DNA of 41,099 bases from a virus. Below the pieces are notes generated by a model. That model searched no databases. It was not told the DNA's origin and saw only the letters and a list, made by a program, of their open reading frames with translations. The stretch covers positions 1-41,099 of IMG/VR virus record IMGVR_UViG_3300036766_000148, one strand, 5' to 3'. Positions 1,274-32,920 of this stretch are shown here, one piece after another. The position numbers and the translations under genes were made by a program. Every line of letters begins with the position of its first letter. Position 1 is the stretch's first letter.

Positions 1274-2050
1274 ATGCCAATTACTTTAGGGAATGACATC
1301 TCACATTATCAAGGCGATATTAACTATGACATCTTTAAGAATAACAGTCAGTTTGTAATTGCTAAGGCTTCTGAGGGTAACTACTATAAAGATGATAAGC
1401 TCACTAGGAATAAATCTGAGGCTAGACGAGTAGGCCTTACTCTTGGATATTATCATTTTGCTAGACCTAGCCACGGAACTTCAGGCCAACAAGAAGCTGA
1501 TTACTTTTTAACTACAATTGGAGACTTTAAAGAAGGTGAAATGTTATGCCTAGATTATGAAGATACCTGGGCAGGTGATATTGTGGCTTGGTGTAAAGCA
1601 TTTTTAGATAGGATTCGCGAAAAAGTCCCTGGATATAATGCTTTGATTTATTTGAATCAATCTCACATGGGCCTTAATTGGAAGCCAGTAATTGATGCCG
1701 GGAATGGTTTATGGATTGCAGCTTATACTTACAGTCCAACTAATAATACTTTTAATAAAGGTCAATGGCCTTTTGCAGCTATGCAGCAATGGAGTAATAA
1801 ACAATCAGTCCCGGGTATCTCAAGCCCAGTTGATGGTGATGTTTTCTTTGGAGATTTAACTACTCTTAAAAAGTATTGTTATAAAGCCCCAGCTCCTATG
1901 CCTCCTGCAGACCCCTGCACAGCAGTCAAAGCAGAACTTGAAGCTACAAAACTTGAATTGTCTAAAACTCAGGGTGCTTTGACACAAGCAAACTCTGAAA
2001 TTATAATGCTCAATGGTAAGATTGAATCAGCTAAGAGTGCTTTGAGCTAG
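1274..2050 (+). CDS. Endolysin, glycoside hydrolase family 25 lysozyme
   Basis: 258 residues. The GH25 barrel covers about residues 3-205. It shows the N-terminal GNDISHYQGDI motif (Asp8), the GYYHFARP strand, and the catalytic DxE pair in CLDYED (Asp94 and Glu96). The end of the fold is marked by VDGDVFFGD. GH25 enzymes cut the MurNAc-GlcNAc bond of peptidoglycan. There is no recognisable wall-binding repeat. After a proline-rich linker the C-terminus (about 218-258) is a predicted coiled coil. No signal peptide is seen, so export should depend on a holin. The ATG lies 6 nt after a TATAAT box, with no Shine-Dalgarno site. Confidence 0.93.
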   Translation: MPITLGNDISHYQGDINYDIFKNNSQFVIAKASEGNYYKDDKLTRNKSEARRVGLTLGYYHFARPSHGTSGQQEADYFLTTIGDFKEGEMLCLDYEDTWAGDIVAWCKAFLDRIREKVPGYNALIYLNQSHMGLNWKPVIDAGNGLWIAAYTYSPTNNTFNKGQWPFAAMQQWSNKQSVPGISSPVDGDVFFGDLTTLKKYCYKAPAPMPPADPCTAVKAELEATKLELSKTQGALTQANSEIIMLNGKIESAKSALS

Positions 2051-19259: not shown

Positions 19260-21263
19260 ATGAATCTTTTTCAAAGAGTAGGTAAAACAATAGGTAAATT
19301 CTTCTTAGGTAATAGTACCCCAGGACTTTGGAGTTGGGCAATGCCAGGACAATGGAATAAGAAAATGATGCTCGAGCAATATACCCGCTATGTTTATGCA
19401 GTTGTCTCAGCAATAGCCCAAGAAGCAGCTAAGGTCAATCTTGAGATGTACAAAAATGATAAGGTAGTCGATAACCACCCATTCCTTTCACTTATTAAAA
19501 GACCTAACCCTGATGTATCACAATTCCAGTTTTTGGAAATGCACTTTACTTATATGTTGCTTGCTGGAGAATCTTATTGGTACCTTGCGCGCGGACTTAA
19601 TAGTTTAAAAACAAAAGAACTTCATTTACTTCGACCAGATTTAATGCAAGTTGTTGTTGATAAAACAGACCCTAGGGGAATGGTTGCTGGATATTTAATG
19701 GTTAAACCAGATGGAACTAAAGAACCATTTAATAAAGATGAAGTACTTCATTTCAAAATGCCTAACCCATTAGATCGATATTATGGATTAGGGACTATCC
19801 AAGCAGCTAAGACTTATATTCAAACTGAAGAGTATGCTTCAACCTGGACTAAGAACTCTATATTTAATTCAGGTCGCCCATCAGGAATATTAAATGTTAA
19901 AGGGGTAATTGATAAGGATGAGTTTGAGCAATTAAAGAAACAATTTAAAGAAAATTATTCAGGAACTGAAAATGCTGGTAAGACAATGATGCTTAAAGGT
20001 GCCGATGGTTTGGATTATCAAAAGCTTGGTATGGAACTTCAAGAGGTAGCACTTAAAGAATTAAAAGACATGACCCGCGATGACATTATGGTTATGTTTA
20101 GAGTAAGCAAAACTATTCTTGGAATTACTGATGATGTAAATCGTGCTAATGCTTTGGAAGCAAGAGAAGTCTTTACCCGAAATGTCATAGTCCCAACTGT
20201 TGACAGAATGATGGACCACCTTAATGCTTTCTTAATCCCTGATTGGGGAGATGGATTCTTATTAAGTTATGAAGACCCAACACTTCAAAGTGATGCAGAC
20301 AGATTAGCTGAATGGACTGCAGGGCATAATAAATGGCTTACTACAAATGATATTCGTGGAGAAAGACAACTTGACCCAATTCCTGGAGGGGATGTTATAA
20401 GAGAACCATTTAGTTTGACTCCAACTTCTGGTGACCCTAAAGGGGATTTGGCAAGTGCTCCTGTTATAACACCAACTAAAGGTTTAAAAAAAAAAGACTT
20501 AGAAGTAAATAAAAAACTCCGTGAAAAAATCTTTACAGAATCCCTATTTTCAATACAAGATCACTGGATGGGTCTTTATCAAGGCATTATGGATACAGAG
20601 TTTAAACTTCAGCAAAAGGAAATTCTTGCAAATAATAAAAAGTCTAGTTTCATAGAATGGTTATTTGATGTCGATGCTTCACAGACCCGCATAGTTGGTA
20701 AACTCTTCCCATTAGGGATTGAGTTAATGAAAGCAGCAGCTAAGGTTGCATTAGAACTTGCCGGGGATAAAGAAACTGAATTAGAAGTTGTTAATAGAAT
20801 TACTGATTATATCCATGACAGAACTACCCGCCTTGCAACTGCTACAAATGATGAAACTATAAAATCTATTGAGGCAGCAATATCTGAAGGTACTCAAAAT
20901 GGTGAATCAGTTGCCAAACTTAGAGAGAGAGTCAAAGAAGTTTACAGTTATGCTACAGATACTAGAGCTCAAAGGATTGCGCGAACTGAAAGTATTGCAG
21001 TAAGCAATGAAGGAAGCCTTGCAGCTTATCGTCAATCCCCTCTTGTTACTGGTAAAGAATGGGCAACAACTGGTGACCCTTGTGAATTTTGTGCAGAGCT
21101 TGAAGGTAAAGTAGTTGAGATTGATTCTAACTTTGCAAACCTAGGCCATGATTTTACAGGTGCAGATGGTGGAAAATTAAAGATTGATTATGAGGATATT
21201 GAACATCCCCCAATTCACCCAAATTGTCGCTGTGTATTATTGCCAGTAGTCCTTGAAAATTAA
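19260..21263 (+). CDS. Portal protein fused to MuF head-morphogenesis domain
   Basis: 667 residues. Residues 1-405 are a HK97-type portal (YTRYVYAVVSAIAQEAAKV, HPFLSLIKRPNP, PFNKDEVLHFK, SKTILGITDD). Residues about 420-667 carry the MuF/SPP1 gp7 domain: RIARTESIAVSNEGSLAAYR, CEFCAELEGKVV and the closing HPNCRC. The junction (about 408-412) is coded by a run of ten A. A -1 slip there ends translation after five codons, giving a free portal of 417 residues, a normal portal length. A +1 slip also stops quickly. So one gene may give both portal and portal-MuF. Confidence 0.92.
   Translation: MNLFQRVGKTIGKFFLGNSTPGLWSWAMPGQWNKKMMLEQYTRYVYAVVSAIAQEAAKVNLEMYKNDKVVDNHPFLSLIKRPNPDVSQFQFLEMHFTYMLLAGESYWYLARGLNSLKTKELHLLRPDLMQVVVDKTDPRGMVAGYLMVKPDGTKEPFNKDEVLHFKMPNPLDRYYGLGTIQAAKTYIQTEEYASTWTKNSIFNSGRPSGILNVKGVIDKDEFEQLKKQFKENYSGTENAGKTMMLKGADGLDYQKLGMELQEVALKELKDMTRDDIMVMFRVSKTILGITDDVNRANALEAREVFTRNVIVPTVDRMMDHLNAFLIPDWGDGFLLSYEDPTLQSDADRLAEWTAGHNKWLTTNDIRGERQLDPIPGGDVIREPFSLTPTSGDPKGDLASAPVITPTKGLKKKDLEVNKKLREKIFTESLFSIQDHWMGLYQGIMDTEFKLQQKEILANNKKSSFIEWLFDVDASQTRIVGKLFPLGIELMKAAAKVALELAGDKETELEVVNRITDYIHDRTTRLATATNDETIKSIEAAISEGTQNGESVAKLRERVKEVYSYATDTRAQRIARTESIAVSNEGSLAAYRQSPLVTGKEWATTGDPCEFCAELEGKVVEIDSNFANLGHDFTGADGGKLKIDYEDIEHPPIHPNCRCVLLPVVLEN
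20486..20495 (+). other. A10 run at the portal-MuF junction, likely slippage site
   Basis: Zero-frame codons are TTA AAA AAA AAA GAC. A -1 shift continues AGA CTT AGA AGT AAA and stops at TAA (20510-20512). A +1 shift stops at TAG (20500-20502). Either slip truncates exactly after the portal domain. Confidence 0.6.
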
Positions 21264-23193: not shown

Positions 23194-23555
23194 ACCCACA
23201 AAATCCAATAATGTCACATTTAGCTGGTGATAAACCAGAAGTTGGTCAAGAGCATACAGAAGTAAGGATTAATATGGCTAAACTTCCTAAACCTGCAAAT
23301 ATTACCGGGATTGCCGGGGAAAAATGCAATAACTGTGGGGGTTATGGATTTACAGTTGGTATGAATGGAAAGCATATTGATTGTGCTCAATGTGAGAAAA
23401 CAGGTGTCAAACTTCCGACTATTCGTGAACTTCAAACTCAAATTAGTGAATTAAAATTAGATTTGTCAGCTTTAAGGAAAGCTATTTTAGATGCTATCCC
23501 TCATGCGCAAATTGTCGATCCTAGAGATGTAGGGGCAAAGGAGGTAGTCGAATGA
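23190..23555 (+). CDS. DnaJ-type zinc-knuckle protein
   Basis: 121 residues. CNNCGGYGF (Cys47, Cys50) and CAQCEKTG (Cys67, Cys70) form one CxxCxGxG-type zinc finger, as in DnaJ. The C-terminal part is a coiled coil (about 80-105, ELQTQISELKLDLSALRKAIL). It is ATGA-coupled on both sides and has a GGAGG site. The next gene is the homing endonuclease. Confidence 0.6.
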   Translation: MNPQNPIMSHLAGDKPEVGQEHTEVRINMAKLPKPANITGIAGEKCNNCGGYGFTVGMNGKHIDCAQCEKTGVKLPTIRELQTQISELKLDLSALRKAILDAIPHAQIVDPRDVGAKEVVE

Positions 23556-24037
23556 GTAGGCAAATCTTTATAGTTCCTGAATTAGAACATGATAACATTG
23601 TTTATATGGCTGGTTTAATAGATGGTGAAGGATGTTTTTATATTGCTCACAAAATCAAAAATATGTTAAAATCTACCTATTCTCCACAATTTAAGATTGT
23701 TTTGACGAATCAAGAAGTAATTGTTTGGATGGCTGATAAACTTAAAAGATCATATACACATATATTAGGTAGTTCTGATACAAACCAACATGAAACTTAT
23801 ATCGTAAGAATTAGTGATAGAATTGGACTTATAAAATTTATTGAACAGATTTTACCATATTTAATTGTTAAAAAAGATATTGCACAAACTATTTTAGATT
23901 TTTGTAAATCACGAGTAAATAATTGGGACATAAACAATTCAAGAAAAATGGCATCTACATATAGTAAAATAGAATTAGATTTATTTAATAAAACAAAAAC
24001 ACTAAACCAAGTAGGTTTTATGAAAGGGGGATACTAA
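23552..24037 (+). CDS. LAGLIDADG-type homing endonuclease
   Basis: 161 residues with one motif, MAGLIDGEGCFYI (19-31, the metal-binding acid being Asp24 or Glu26), then the usual beta strands (QFKIVLTNQEVIVWMADKL, TYIVRISDRIGLIKFI). Single-motif enzymes of this size act as homodimers. The N-terminus is MSRQ and, just after the stop, the next gene begins with ISRQ in different codons. So the element seems to have split an MSRQ-starting gene and restored it behind itself. The codon use is more AT-rich than in the neighbours. Confidence 0.85.
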   Translation: MSRQIFIVPELEHDNIVYMAGLIDGEGCFYIAHKIKNMLKSTYSPQFKIVLTNQEVIVWMADKLKRSYTHILGSSDTNQHETYIVRISDRIGLIKFIEQILPYLIVKKDIAQTILDFCKSRVNNWDINNSRKMASTYSKIELDLFNKTKTLNQVGFMKGGY

Positions 24038-24038
24038 A

Positions 24039-24602
24039 ATTTCACGACAATATTGGGAAGAATTAATTGCTTGGGCTACTGCTTCTGGTACTGCTGTGGC
24101 TTCATCAACTACTGAAACTATTTTATATCCAAATATAACTATCCCTGCTAATTACATGCAAGATGGCCGTACTATTCACATTGTTTATATTGGTCAGTAT
24201 TCAGAATTAGGCTCAGGTACAGTTACTAAAATATTCAATGTTAGATGGGGTGGAGTTGCAGGAACTGTTATTTGTAAGACAGGTACAATTACCACACTTA
24301 TTAGTGCTGCAGCATGGCTTGAGATAGTTGAGGTCTGGATAACAACTCGCTCAAATGGTTCCTCAGGCACTGTAATGGGCAATGGATATGCGATGGTATT
24401 CGGGGGCACTGCCCCCACAGTAGGGTCTGCGACAGGTGCCCCAGCAGTCTCTCCATTAACTGCAGGAGGCCAAGTTACACCTGCTACAGCGTCACTTGAT
24501 TTAACAGCAGATACAGCTTTGGCTATTACTACTACTCACGGTTCAAATAGTGCAAGCGATACTGAGACAGGACTTCAATACACCCTCGAATCCTGGAATT
24601 AA
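24039..24602 (+). CDS. Small structural protein, predicted ATT start
   Basis: 187 residues if begun at ATT 24039. The frame is open as (I/M)SRQYWEELIAWATASGTAV before the first GTG at 24096, with AAAGGGGG ending 8 nt upstream of the ATT, so the usual 24096 start would waste a good ribosome site and a sensible N-terminus. The rest is Thr/Gly/Ala-rich beta structure (TILYPNITIPANYMQDGRTI, IFNVRWGGVAG, YAMVFGG) as in phage head or tail decoration proteins. It lies behind the homing endonuclease. Confidence 0.65.
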   Translation: MSRQYWEELIAWATASGTAVASSTTETILYPNITIPANYMQDGRTIHIVYIGQYSELGSGTVTKIFNVRWGGVAGTVICKTGTITTLISAAAWLEIVEVWITTRSNGSSGTVMGNGYAMVFGGTAPTVGSATGAPAVSPLTAGGQVTPATASLDLTADTALAITTTHGSNSASDTETGLQYTLESWN

Positions 24603-24607
24603 TTTAC

Positions 24608-24621
24608 TGGTATAATAAGTT
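24608..24621 (+). promoter_or_regulatory. Extended -10 promoter before the 24622 gene
   Basis: TG-G-TATAAT (24608-24616) with ATG at 24622, 5 nt later. No Shine-Dalgarno site. Confidence 0.7.
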
Positions 24622-25317
24622 ATGCTTATAAGAGTTGGTGCAACTGCAGTCGAAAGTACCTCAATTACTATTCCTACGCATAAGATAGGAGATTTAATAA
24701 TAATGTTTGCTTTCCGCGATGGATCAGCAACAAATCCTACAATTGGTACAGGTTCACCTACAGTTTGGACTTCAATTACAAGTACAACAGATGGTACCTC
24801 ATGTTCAGTCTCTATGGCGTGGAAAATTGCAACCTCAACTGCAGAACTTTCAGGAACTTGGACTAATGCGACTGATTTAGTTTGCTTAGTTTATAGGGGT
24901 CACTTATCTTCAGGAACTCCAATAGGAACTTTTGCCCCAGGTTCAGGTACAACAAATACAGTCAACTATGCAGCAAGGACTTTGACTAAATCAAATATAA
25001 TTGGTGATTCTTGGTTTATTGCTTTTGCGGGTCATAGAAGTGCAGATACTACTTTAGAATCACCACCTACTAATATGGCTTTAATATCTGGGTCTGCTTT
25101 AGTTGCTTCATCTTCTGAAGTTGCAGCTTTTGACACAAATGGCCCTGCACCACAAGATTGGCCATCAACTAATGTATCAATATCAGGTACAGCTTCGGGG
25201 TGGCAAACAGAAGTAATTGAAATTAAAGTTGAACCTTGGATTGTAAATAACTATAAATTTCCAAGTTCATCAGTTGGGAATACAGGTATAATTAGTATTG
25301 GAGAAAAAATAAGATAA
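24622..25317 (+). CDS. Beta-sandwich surface protein
   Basis: 231 residues, Thr/Ser/Gly-rich. SITIPTHKIGDLIIMFAFRDG, VSMAWKIATSTAELSG and DSWFIAFAGHRS recall a jelly-roll domain common in phage fibre and host-surface proteins. No enzyme motif. It overlaps the next gene by TAATG, so the three genes 24622, 25317 and 26267 form one coupled unit, probably of fibre or adhesin parts. Confidence 0.55.
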   Translation: MLIRVGATAVESTSITIPTHKIGDLIIMFAFRDGSATNPTIGTGSPTVWTSITSTTDGTSCSVSMAWKIATSTAELSGTWTNATDLVCLVYRGHLSSGTPIGTFAPGSGTTNTVNYAARTLTKSNIIGDSWFIAFAGHRSADTTLESPPTNMALISGSALVASSSEVAAFDTNGPAPQDWPSTNVSISGTASGWQTEVIEIKVEPWIVNNYKFPSSSVGNTGIISIGEKIR

Positions 25318-26267
25318 TGTTAATAAAATATGGAACTTATATTGGTGATGGGACTTCTTCTCATGCAATAACCGGGATTGGGTTTAAACCAGATATGGTT
25401 ATAGCAAAACCTGCAATTACTTCAGATGGTATGGCTTTCAGAACTAAAGATATGGATGCCGGGAAGTCTACTTATATTAGAAATGATTGGGGCTATGAAA
25501 CTACTTTTATTCAATCTTTTGAAGTAAATGGTTTTACAGTGGGTAGTGATTCAAGAATTAATGGTAATAATTCTTTATTTTATTACATAGCTATTGCAGA
25601 AGATTCGGCTAATGATTTTAAAGTTTTTACTTTTACAGGTGATAGTACAGATGGTAAAGCACTTACTGGATTTGGTTTTCAACCAGCATTTGTTTTTATA
25701 AAAGGTATTCAATCTTTAACAGGTGCAATGAAATTTTCTAGTGCAACAGATACTTCAATGGTATTTAGTGGAGGTGGAACTCAAGATAGAACTGATTTAA
25801 TTGTTAGCCTTGATGCAGATGGTTGTACAATAAATAATGGTTCAGTAGGATCTGCAAATTTAGTAAATCCAAGTGTTGCTTGTTTTGGTTTTGCTTTCAA
25901 AAGTGTTACAGGTAAAGTTAAAGTTGGTACTTATACCGGGAATGGAGTTGATAATACAGTAATTGACCCAGGTTTTCCCCCAGGATTAGTTTTAATTAAA
26001 TCAAGTACATCTCAAGACCCATGTTTTAAAACTCCAGTAATTCAAGGTGATAATTCTATTGGCTTTGATTATGCTCAAGTAAATGATTCTATTCAAAGTA
26101 TGAATAGTTCTGGTTTTACTTTAGGAACACGTGGGAATGTTAACTCAAATACAGTTGTTTATAATTATCTAGTAGTTTATAACCCGACAAATCTTAATGG
26201 GTTAAGTAATAAAATTAGAAATATCTCAGTAGGTAATGGAATGAGTAGGTCTGAATTAGCATCATAA
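25317..26267 (+). CDS. Fibre-type protein with three internal repeats
   Basis: 316 residues. A unit of the form GTYIGDGTSSHAITGIGFKP followed by D/F-x-V-I/F-x-K occurs three times (about 6-33, 99-128 and 197-227). This repeat pattern, (Y/F)TG(N/D)G then GFxPxxVxIK, is known from phage tail-fibre and adhesin proteins. All beta, with no enzyme motif. Coupled by TAATG to its neighbours. Confidence 0.65.
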   Translation: MLIKYGTYIGDGTSSHAITGIGFKPDMVIAKPAITSDGMAFRTKDMDAGKSTYIRNDWGYETTFIQSFEVNGFTVGSDSRINGNNSLFYYIAIAEDSANDFKVFTFTGDSTDGKALTGFGFQPAFVFIKGIQSLTGAMKFSSATDTSMVFSGGGTQDRTDLIVSLDADGCTINNGSVGSANLVNPSVACFGFAFKSVTGKVKVGTYTGNGVDNTVIDPGFPPGLVLIKSSTSQDPCFKTPVIQGDNSIGFDYAQVNDSIQSMNSSGFTLGTRGNVNSNTVVYNYLVVYNPTNLNGLSNKIRNISVGNGMSRSELAS

Positions 26268-30148: not shown

Positions 30149-30163
30149 TGATATACTAATTTT
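30149..30163 (+). promoter_or_regulatory. Extended -10 promoter before the protease-capsid gene
   Basis: TG-A-TATACT (30149-30157) with ATG at 30164, 6 nt later. No Shine-Dalgarno site. Confidence 0.65.
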
Positions 30164-32146
30164 ATGGATGAATTAAAAAAGATTCTAGCCAAAAAAGTTG
30201 ATGAGAGAACTGCTGCGGAGTTGCAGTATTTGGAACTTCATAAACAAGAACTAAGCACAGATCAGCTTCAGCAATTGCAGGATGAAAAATCCACAGTTGT
30301 TAAATTAGAAAATGCCGAGAAGAAAGAATTAGATGGTATTTTTGAAACTAAAGATTTAGGCGATGGTGAAGTTCAAGCAATTGTTGCTTCAGATTCAGTT
30401 GATAGGCATGGAGAGATAATTGATATTGCTGGGCTTAGTGTTAAAAAGTATATGGATAACCCGGTTGTTCAATGGGCACATGATTATGATAAACCCCCAA
30501 TAGCACAAGCTACTAAAGTTTGGAAAAGTGGTGGTAAGTTAATGGCCAAGATGAAGTTTGCTTTAGAAGAAAATCCTTTTGCTAAACAAGTTTATGATTT
30601 AATTAAAGGTGGATTCTTAAATGCAGTTTCAATTGGATTTATACCTCTTGAGATGGATGGTAATACTTTTACAAAATCTGAGATGGTTGAATTTTCAGTT
30701 GTACCAGTTCCAGCCAATTCTGAAGCATTGATTACTGCTCGTAAATTGGGGCTTGACACTAGTATTTTGAAATCCTACAATGTAGTTATGTACAAATTAG
30801 AAGAGATCCTCGCAAAAGCAGTAGCCGATTTAACAATTGGTGAAATAAAATTCCTCAAAGAGAATGTTGAAAAATTGACACAAGCTCAAGCTAAAAAGTA
30901 TGCATCTGTATTGAAAGAAGAAACTCAAGAAACTGAAGAAGAGAAAGTTGCTCGTGAAGCAAAAGAAAAAGAAGAAGCAGACAAAGTAGCTGCAGATAAA
31001 GCAGAAGCTGAAAAAGTTGCTGCAGGTCAAGGTGAAACAGCAGAAGCACTTAAGAAACTCCAAGCAGAAGTTGAAGCATTAAAGAGTGCAGACCCAATTG
31101 CTTTCCGAAACTTCTCAATCCAAGCAGGTAAAAAAGGTGATGTCTCAAAAGAGATGAAATTCTTACTTTATGCTAGGGGCGTAAAAAGTGGTAATTTCTC
31201 AGAATATCTACAAGTAGTTGGCAAAGATGCCATGAATACTACTGATGATGGTGTAGTTTTACCTCCAGCAGAATTTGTTACTGAAATAACTCGTCTTGAA
31301 GAATCCTTTGGAGTAGGTCGAAGATTTGCTACAGTTAGACGCTCAGCATCCGGGAATGGTATTAAATTCCTTTTGGGTGATGATGATGTGTCAATTTATG
31401 ATACAGCTGAGAGTGGAGTTAAGAAATCCACCAAACTTAGTTATGATTCCCAGACCTTACTTTGGAGAAAGTTTGCAGCTATCTTACCTATAACTGATGA
31501 ACTTAATGAAGATTCAGCTATTGATCTTTGGACAGATGCTACAAATAGATTTGCAAGAGCTTATGCAAGACAAGAAGATCAGTTAATCTTTACTGAAAGT
31601 GATGACACTGGACCAAAGAATAAAGGTATTACTACAGTTGCAGGTACAAATCTAGTTGAGATTGCAAACCTTGCAGCTCTTAATTTTGAAAAATTAGTAG
31701 ACATGATCTTTGGAGTACCATCAGCTTCTGGTGATAATGGTAGATTCTTCTTGAATAGAACATTCCTTGGTGAAGTTATGAAGATGAAAGATCAAAATGA
31801 CCGACCACTTTGGTTGCCAGGAGTAGCTTCAGGAGCACCTGCAACAATCCTTAATAGACCTTATGAATTAACTGAAGTCTTGAATAAAGTTGAAGATGCA
31901 GACCCAGGTGAAGCAATAATGGTTTATGGAGATTTGAAATTCGTAACTCTTGGAGAAAGAAATACTTTGAGCGTCAAGATGTTTGACACAGGTATAGTTG
32001 GTGACCCAGATGAAGAAGATCAAGATACAAATACAATCAATCTTATGACTCAAGATGCACAAGCAATGAGAGTTGTTAAAAGAATGAATGCCATTGTAAG
32101 ATTCCCAGCAGCTTTCTCAGTATTGAAACTTGAAAGCGGATCTTAA
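30164..32146 (+). CDS. HK97-type prohead protease fused to major capsid protein
   Basis: 660 residues. Residues about 55-195 are an S78 prohead protease: AIVASDSVDRHGEIID, the catalytic His106 in QWAHDY, Ser156 in NAVSIGF, and MVEFSVVPVPAN. Residues about 210-320 are a charged helical scaffold (delta-like) region. Residues about 330-660 are the HK97-fold capsid protein (VLPPAEFVTEITRLEESFGVGRRF, LPITDELNEDS, FFLNRTFLGEVMKMKD, MRVVKRMNAIVRFPAAFSVL). The segments starting at Met1 and Met209 resemble each other (L-x-x-I-L-A-K-x-V), a sign of duplication or gene fusion. An internal promoter and start at 30788 could give free capsid. Confidence 0.93.
   Translation: MDELKKILAKKVDERTAAELQYLELHKQELSTDQLQQLQDEKSTVVKLENAEKKELDGIFETKDLGDGEVQAIVASDSVDRHGEIIDIAGLSVKKYMDNPVVQWAHDYDKPPIAQATKVWKSGGKLMAKMKFALEENPFAKQVYDLIKGGFLNAVSIGFIPLEMDGNTFTKSEMVEFSVVPVPANSEALITARKLGLDTSILKSYNVVMYKLEEILAKAVADLTIGEIKFLKENVEKLTQAQAKKYASVLKEETQETEEEKVAREAKEKEEADKVAADKAEAEKVAAGQGETAEALKKLQAEVEALKSADPIAFRNFSIQAGKKGDVSKEMKFLLYARGVKSGNFSEYLQVVGKDAMNTTDDGVVLPPAEFVTEITRLEESFGVGRRFATVRRSASGNGIKFLLGDDDVSIYDTAESGVKKSTKLSYDSQTLLWRKFAAILPITDELNEDSAIDLWTDATNRFARAYARQEDQLIFTESDDTGPKNKGITTVAGTNLVEIANLAALNFEKLVDMIFGVPSASGDNGRFFLNRTFLGEVMKMKDQNDRPLWLPGVASGAPATILNRPYELTEVLNKVEDADPGEAIMVYGDLKFVTLGERNTLSVKMFDTGIVGDPDEEDQDTNTINLMTQDAQAMRVVKRMNAIVRFPAAFSVLKLESGS
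30753..30787 (+). promoter_or_regulatory. Consensus promoter nested inside the protease-capsid gene
   Basis: TTGACA at 30753-30758, a 17-bp spacer, TACAAT at 30776-30781, and an in-frame ATG (Met209) at 30788, 6 nt later. It is the same leaderless layout as at other phage promoters and falls exactly at the protease-to-capsid boundary. Confidence 0.65.
30788..32146 (+). CDS. Predicted free major capsid protein from internal start
   Basis: 452 residues, in frame with the fusion, starting at Met209 (MYKLEEILAKAVADL). It would hold the scaffold-like helices and the whole HK97 capsid fold without the protease. A consensus promoter ends 6 nt upstream. Capsid protein is needed at hundreds of copies per head and protease at few, so a second product would solve the ratio problem of a fused gene. 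This is a prediction from sequence. Confidence 0.55.
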   Translation: MYKLEEILAKAVADLTIGEIKFLKENVEKLTQAQAKKYASVLKEETQETEEEKVAREAKEKEEADKVAADKAEAEKVAAGQGETAEALKKLQAEVEALKSADPIAFRNFSIQAGKKGDVSKEMKFLLYARGVKSGNFSEYLQVVGKDAMNTTDDGVVLPPAEFVTEITRLEESFGVGRRFATVRRSASGNGIKFLLGDDDVSIYDTAESGVKKSTKLSYDSQTLLWRKFAAILPITDELNEDSAIDLWTDATNRFARAYARQEDQLIFTESDDTGPKNKGITTVAGTNLVEIANLAALNFEKLVDMIFGVPSASGDNGRFFLNRTFLGEVMKMKDQNDRPLWLPGVASGAPATILNRPYELTEVLNKVEDADPGEAIMVYGDLKFVTLGERNTLSVKMFDTGIVGDPDEEDQDTNTINLMTQDAQAMRVVKRMNAIVRFPAAFSVLKLESGS

Positions 32147-32177
32147 CCTCCTAGGTTCATCTCAACACCAGTAACTT

Positions 32178-32264
32178 TATAATGTTAGCATTGTAATGTT
32201 CTGAAATCCCTACATTATAATGTACAGGTTTGCATAGATTCTAAATAATCTGCATAGATTGTAA
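32178..32264. promoter_or_regulatory. Palindrome and direct repeats between capsid and connector genes
   Basis: In the 162-bp gap after the capsid gene, ACATTATAATGT (32212-32223) is a perfect 12-bp palindrome, with related TATAATG (32178-32184) and TGTAATG copies upstream. TGCATAGATTSTAA occurs at 32231-32244 and 32251-32264, exactly 20 bp apart. This looks like a binding region for a regulator controlling the connector-tail genes. A short AACCT/AGGTT hairpin follows the capsid stop. No clear T run is seen. Confidence 0.5.
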
Positions 32265-32308: not shown

Positions 32309-32920
32309 ATGTACACAGATCAAGGTCGTGTCGAATCTTACCTTAAAAGGGAACTTACCGACGAAGAAATAGATATAATTGATGAGGTAATACTCCAAAA
32401 TTCTTCATATATAAATGGCTATACTAACCGGGAATGGTTATCGGTTGATACTGAAGTCGATGATGAGATTGATGATTTAGAGCCCTCAGAAAGAATCTTT
32501 AATGGTAATGGTAAGCGCGAACTATTTATAGATGACTTTACATTGTTAGAATCAATCTCAGTTCAGGATAACCAAGGTAATGAAGTTATCAAATATGAAG
32601 AAGAAACTGATTGGTTACTTTATCCTCTTAACAAGAATCCTAAACAATCAATTCATTTGAGGACTGGGAGTTTCCAATATGGCCAGGGGAATATAGAGGT
32701 AACTGCTGTGTGGGGCGCTGGGATAGTCCCGGCAGATATTGTGGTGGTTTGTACTGCTTTGGTTGCAAAGTATCTACAGAAGGCTACATCGTCTACAGGG
32801 ATGTATAGCAGTGAGTCTATTGAGGGTTATTCTTACAAGTTATTAAATGCTTCTGAGATTGATTCGGATACAGCAAATGTATTAAAAAATTTAGACAAAT
32901 GGAAAAAGTTTATTTTATAA
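32309..32920 (+). CDS. Head-tail connector (adaptor) protein
   Basis: 203 residues. An N-terminal helical part (YLKRELTDEEIDIIDEVILQNSSYINGY), a central beta part (ERIFNGNGKRELFIDDFTLLESISVQDNQG) and C-terminal helices (ADIVVVCTALVAKYLQKA) match the HK97 gp6/SPP1 gp15 type adaptor. It binds beneath the portal. It is the first gene of the connector group and starts directly at its promoter. Confidence 0.75.
   Translation: MYTDQGRVESYLKRELTDEEIDIIDEVILQNSSYINGYTNREWLSVDTEVDDEIDDLEPSERIFNGNGKRELFIDDFTLLESISVQDNQGNEVIKYEEETDWLLYPLNKNPKQSIHLRTGSFQYGQGNIEVTAVWGAGIVPADIVVVCTALVAKYLQKATSSTGMYSSESIEGYSYKLLNASEIDSDTANVLKNLDKWKKFIL

Follow-up and report, generated by a model that had tools for sequence, protein, structure and literature searches.

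The window analysed here, the 41,099-base virus record of an uncultured phage, carries on its + strand one gene (30164–32146; 660 AA) in which an S78 prohead protease, a scaffold-like domain and an HK97-type major capsid protein are joined. Pfam searches placed the Peptidase_S78 match at residues 130–193 (30551–30742, + strand; E=5e-8) and the Phage_capsid domain of the HK97-fold family at residues 365–655 (31256–32128, + strand; E=7e-35), both within a single uninterrupted 660-AA open reading frame, which identifies the gene as a fusion. Residues H106 and S156 of the protease, presumably the catalytic His and Ser of the S78 family, were invariant across the 13 fusions aligned. The gene has what appears to be its own promoter, an extended -10 element (TG-A-TATACT; 30149–30157, + strand) without a -35, which lies 6 nt before ATG 30164. 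No Rfam families were found in the window.

A second start signal lies inside the gene. The initial annotation had described a TTGACA-17-TACAAT promoter followed 6 nt later by an in-frame ATG at the junction of the protease and capsid parts, and the window sequence agrees with it on both points. The -35 hexamer TTGACA (30753–30758), the 17-nt spacer (30759–30775) and the -10 hexamer TACAAT (30776–30781), all on the + strand, form together with the ATG a site spanning 30753–30790. ATG 30788 is codon 209 of the 660-AA frame; residue 209 is directly C-terminal of the protease domain and falls between the S78 and Phage_capsid matches. It opens a nested capsid gene of 452 AA (30788–32146, + strand), starting inside the protease gene and having its frame, stop codon and 3′ end in common with the fusion, and its start is homologous to those of stand-alone capsid genes. 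The sequence before ATG 30788 was checked for a Shine-Dalgarno site and gave no match; with the -10 ending 6 nt before the ATG, the arrangement is that of a leaderless gene as judged from sequence. The 6-nt gap fits leaderless expression, and in several relatives, where the gap is 9 nt, there is room for a leader of approximately 0–3 nt, so that the nested transcript may, but need not, be strictly leaderless.

Promoters of this kind are common in the phage. The window contains nine TTGACA-16/18-TAnnnT sites, all on the + strand and each with an ATG 4–9 nt downstream, and zero such sites on the - strand. As all nine adjoin an ATG, the nested site represents the ordinary near-leaderless promoter type of this phage, used for whole genes. 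A second class, TGn-TAtaaT without a -35, precedes several genes, the fusion gene among them, by 5–6 nt, and the TGn-TAnnnT pattern precedes the fusion also in the relatives L002, L032, L033, L073 and L074. Promoters of these classes are present at ~31% of gene starts vs. 2.2% of internal ATGs. Near-leaderless promoters of the two classes (TTGACA-17-TAnnnT, and TGn-TATAAT without a -35) were recorded at window positions 1274, 5781, 11494, 19260, 21662, 24622, 29853, 30164, 32309, 34018, 34535 and 39231, and the closest relative, L002 (record G001, 41,229 bases, syntenic with the window), has many of them at the orthologous starts as well. Their wide distribution points to a host in which leaderless translation is common. 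The leaderless habit and the AT content brought a Patescibacteria or CPR host into consideration, with no evidence found for or against it; two scans of genome contigs for a host or prophages found no relatives.

Several other features of the two genomes were recorded. A perfect TTGACA-17-TATAAT promoter (window 1979–2015) lies close to the end of gene 1274–2050, and the ATG 5 nt after it opens an ORF of only 10 codons ahead of gene 2055/2076. The portal and a Mu-F-like head protein are fused at window 19260–21263 and form two separate ORFs at 23497–25463 of G001. The intergenic region 3′ of the capsid gene (32174–32223) holds three copies of an operator-like 12-bp near-palindrome of the ACATTATAATGT type, which are found also in L002 (8005–8057).

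The chance occurrence of the nested site was estimated by shuffling. From codon-order shuffles of all genes, 0.027 in-frame ATGs per genome are expected to have a promoter matching at least 11/12 positions at 4–10 nt upstream, and none of 300 codon-order shuffles of the fusion gene alone yielded such a site. With the amino-acid sequence held fixed, 36% of the synonymous shuffles of the fusion gene still gave 11/12; the peptide itself allows the promoter, and synonymous-codon shuffling was rejected as a poor test. Because the linker peptide is this permissive, the site in one genome is not proof, and the decision rests with the relatives. The same result speaks for an explanation without any internal expression, by which the fusion would be self-cleaved post-translationally and the promoter-like string would arise incidentally from conservation of the linker peptide. 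Auto-cleavage is usual in prohead proteases of this kind, and part of the -35 overlies a Gly-Ile/Leu-Asp motif which recurs in the linker and may matter in the protein too.

Viral contigs were scanned eight times, which yielded 16 different genes with protease and capsid fused, that of the window included. In 11 of the 16, an identical TTGACA is followed after exactly 17 bp by a -10 with invariant A2 and T6 (nAnnnT). In ten of these (the window, L002, L032, L033, L073, L074, L085, L086, L088 and L179), the gap between the end of the -10 and the homologous internal ATG is 6 or 9 nt. The remaining one, L090, has a 12/12 promoter, but this lies 33 nt upstream of the internal ATG and is not leaderless. 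Ten fusions were compared jointly by column, a set that includes L090 and leaves out L179, which was found later. This set shows no variation at any of the six -35 positions or at A2, A4 and T6 of the -10 (the last three matched in L179 as well), and the spacer is always 17 nt long although its columns show only 22–64% pairwise identity. The -10 reaches only 4/6 in L032 and L179. Spacer and linker residues around the nested promoter vary freely among the fusions.

These comparisons bear directly on the self-cleavage account. The Asp codon within the -35 is GAC in 10/10 fusions, for which the chance is ~10^-5.3 given the codon use of each gene, and the spacing is exactly 17 nt despite the variable residues. 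In L086, which has a longer linker, other residues supply the -35 and the spacing to the ATG is unchanged, whereas L093 retains the Gly-Ile-Asp peptide with a GAT codon and hence has no -35. Also, the promoter is missing from unfused relatives: among 80 distinct loci with protease and capsid in separate ORFs, no promoter of at least 10/12 was found within 60 nt of the capsid ATG. The doubt raised by the synonymous shuffles is removed by this comparative evidence, and we regard self-cleavage without internal expression as very improbable. The two fusions from the last scan, L179 and L187, were used as a small held-out test set; L179 fits (10/12) and L187 does not clearly do so, as its promoter (TGGACA-17-TATCCT) is degraded and lies 42 nt upstream of the internal ATG, with no Shine-Dalgarno close to that ATG. 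The initial annotation had made its proposal dependent on the promoter being kept in relatives, and it is kept in 11/16 fusions, with invariant -35 and spacing in variable surroundings. That the nested promoter is real is thus well supported by sequence conservation.

Four of the other fusions appear to use the same ATG differently. In L076 and L077 it is preceded by clear Shine-Dalgarno sites, AAAGGAGGTGA and AAAGGAG, and in L092 and L093 by purine-rich sites, AGAAGGGA (weak) and GGGGGTGA. The 16 fusions thereby comprise 11 of promoter type, four that are Shine-Dalgarno-like (L076, L077, L092 and L093) and one that is ambiguous (L187). The capsid tree places the fusions in a single group, separated from the unfused relatives that are more distant; the unfused L094 branches at the base of this group. 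Two sub-clades are seen within it, one of nine promoter-type fusions (support 96/95) and one in which L090 joins the four Shine-Dalgarno-type fusions. The promoter of L090, with its 33-nt leader, is possibly a separate gain.

The Shine-Dalgarno-type fusions raise the question of whether free capsid in the window could come from ribosomes that enter the long mRNA internally, with no new transcript. Phages are known to solve the problem by internal translation starts, as in Mu I/Z and lambda C/Nu3, and the sites in L076 and L077 are clear. Yet the window's ATG has no such site, its promoter-type relatives show before theirs at most 4-nt matches, which is the chance level, and it is the promoter hexamers that are conserved in the promoter-type fusions; of the explanations weighed here, internal entry is the least probable. 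The nested promoter might also be real and serve mainly as a boost for the downstream head-tail operon, free capsid being a by-product or not made. The genes 3′ of the fusion are indeed co-directional and would also be fed by a promoter at this place. This account is improbable, as the gene following the fusion has its own promoter at 32309, in ten fusions 6 or 9 nt separate the -10 from an in-frame ATG that has capsid starts as its homologues, and a Shine-Dalgarno-like site at that ATG in four promoter-less fusions is sensible only for capsid production.

The homology of the internal ATG to capsid starts is seen in the unfused relatives, whose stand-alone capsid N-terminus aligns with M209 of the fusion. 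Many of their capsid proteins open with the N-terminal module of the nested ORF (e.g., MLKLKEVIAKEADDLSDEEKVFLKENVEKL in L005 vs. MYKLEEILAKAVADLTIGEIKFLKENVEKL in the window), from which it follows that the internal ATG would be the old capsid start. On this sequence evidence, it is best read as the start codon that capsid had as an independent gene, retained after loss of the intergenic stop codon. Among cultured phages, the capsids found were all distant, at less than ~30% identity, and there was no close fusion.

The N-terminal module of the free capsid (residues 209–245; 30788–30898, + strand) is a repeat of fusion residues 1–37 (30164–30274), and 0/2000 shuffles scored as high as this pair. 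The repeat is present also in L033 and L002, and not clearly in L032. A structure model of the fusion, weak overall (mean pLDDT 55), shows two similar three-helix modules and a weak linker at 203–209. We speculate that the duplicated module might be an assembly tag that helps protease and capsid to assemble together.

Taken as a whole, gene 30164–32146 would consist of two nested in-frame transcription units with a common 3′ part. The -35-less extended -10 before ATG 30164 would drive the full protease-scaffold-capsid fusion. The consensus -35 promoter within the codons of the protease-capsid linker would give a near-leaderless mRNA beginning at, or just before, ATG 30788, to be translated into a 452-AA scaffold-capsid protein without protease. 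By analogy with HK97-type assembly, the shell would be built from free capsid, and some full fusions would co-assemble and carry the protease inside; the nested product would probably outnumber the fusion product. In evolutionary terms, the stop codon between the protease and capsid genes would have been lost, and capsid would have retained its separate initiation, for which one sub-clade uses a nested promoter and most members of the other a Shine-Dalgarno-like site. We assign a probability of roughly 0.84 to this reading, in which the nested near-leaderless transcript supplies the free 452-AA capsid, the full fusion supplies the protease and the internal start is the ancestral capsid start.

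The closest functional counterpart is found in herpesviruses. In HSV-1, the UL26.5 promoter lies inside the coding region of the UL26 protease and the 3′ end is shared; of the two partners in capsid assembly, the UL26.5 product, which lacks the protease, is the more abundant (PMC2949831; PMC4498786, citing Liu and Roizman 1991). Like UL26/UL26.5, the phage gene contains an in-frame 3′-coterminal nested gene with a promoter within the protease coding sequence, which here is deduced from sequence and conservation. Unlike UL26.5, which has a eukaryotic promoter and a scaffold-only product, the phage nested ORF encodes scaffold and major capsid protein. Since it holds the full capsid domain, it would work like UL26.5 but is not a member of that class. 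The initial annotation had considered a gene-in-gene solution through a leaderless promoter to be new, a claim which was too broad given that the nested-promoter logic already exists in UL26/UL26.5.

Internal starts are known from phages as well. In lambda C/Nu3, an in-frame internal start in the head protease gene leads to a product without protease. The window's gene resembles Mu I/Z, PaMx73 and lambda C/Nu3 in having such a start and a predicted protease-free product, but these three use a translational start with a Shine-Dalgarno site and their nested product is scaffold only. A site of that kind is absent at the internal start of the window and present in L076 and L077, and it is the Shine-Dalgarno-type fusions (L076, L077, L092 and L093) that resemble those systems. 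In Mu-like phages such as PaMx73, the scaffold start lies inside the protease gene and has a Shine-Dalgarno site (PMC4378225). In Microbacterium phages of clusters EE and EL, protease, scaffold and capsid are likewise fused in one gene; the passage on these fusions mentions no internal promoter or start (PMC7302621). HK97 gp4/gp5 also pairs a prohead protease with an HK97-type capsid carrying an N-terminal scaffold domain (PMC10275583), but from separate genes. As for the promoter type, -10 elements adjoining ORFs give leaderless mRNA in Deinococcus-Thermus (PMC12340547), and leaderless genes are known from other bacteria as well (PMC3160421). In those bacterial genes, the -10 is similarly placed a few nt before the start, but at ordinary gene starts, whereas here it is also nested in a phage gene. 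In the literature searched, outside which most subscription journals lie, no leaderless nested capsid promoter is described in phages. Nested promoters, internal starts, protease-capsid fusions and leaderless promoters are each known, and it is their combination here that appears new against that literature.

Each head requires hundreds of copies of capsid protein. A protease-capsid fusion therefore poses a dosage puzzle, as one protease per capsid subunit would be wasteful or harmful, and the answer of this clade, readable from the sequence, would be to keep the old capsid start alive within the fusion by a nested promoter or a ribosome-binding site. We consider it likely that the clade sets its protease-to-capsid ratio transcriptionally, through a codon-embedded near-leaderless promoter and independently of the herpesviruses, with the sister branch relying mostly on Shine-Dalgarno-like sites. 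Annotation by the longest ORF would hide a main structural gene at such loci. The fusions would also provide a natural promoter-swap set for studying leaderless expression, and they form a parallel with the protease/scaffold gene of herpesviruses, a group that shares a related capsid machinery with the tailed phages.
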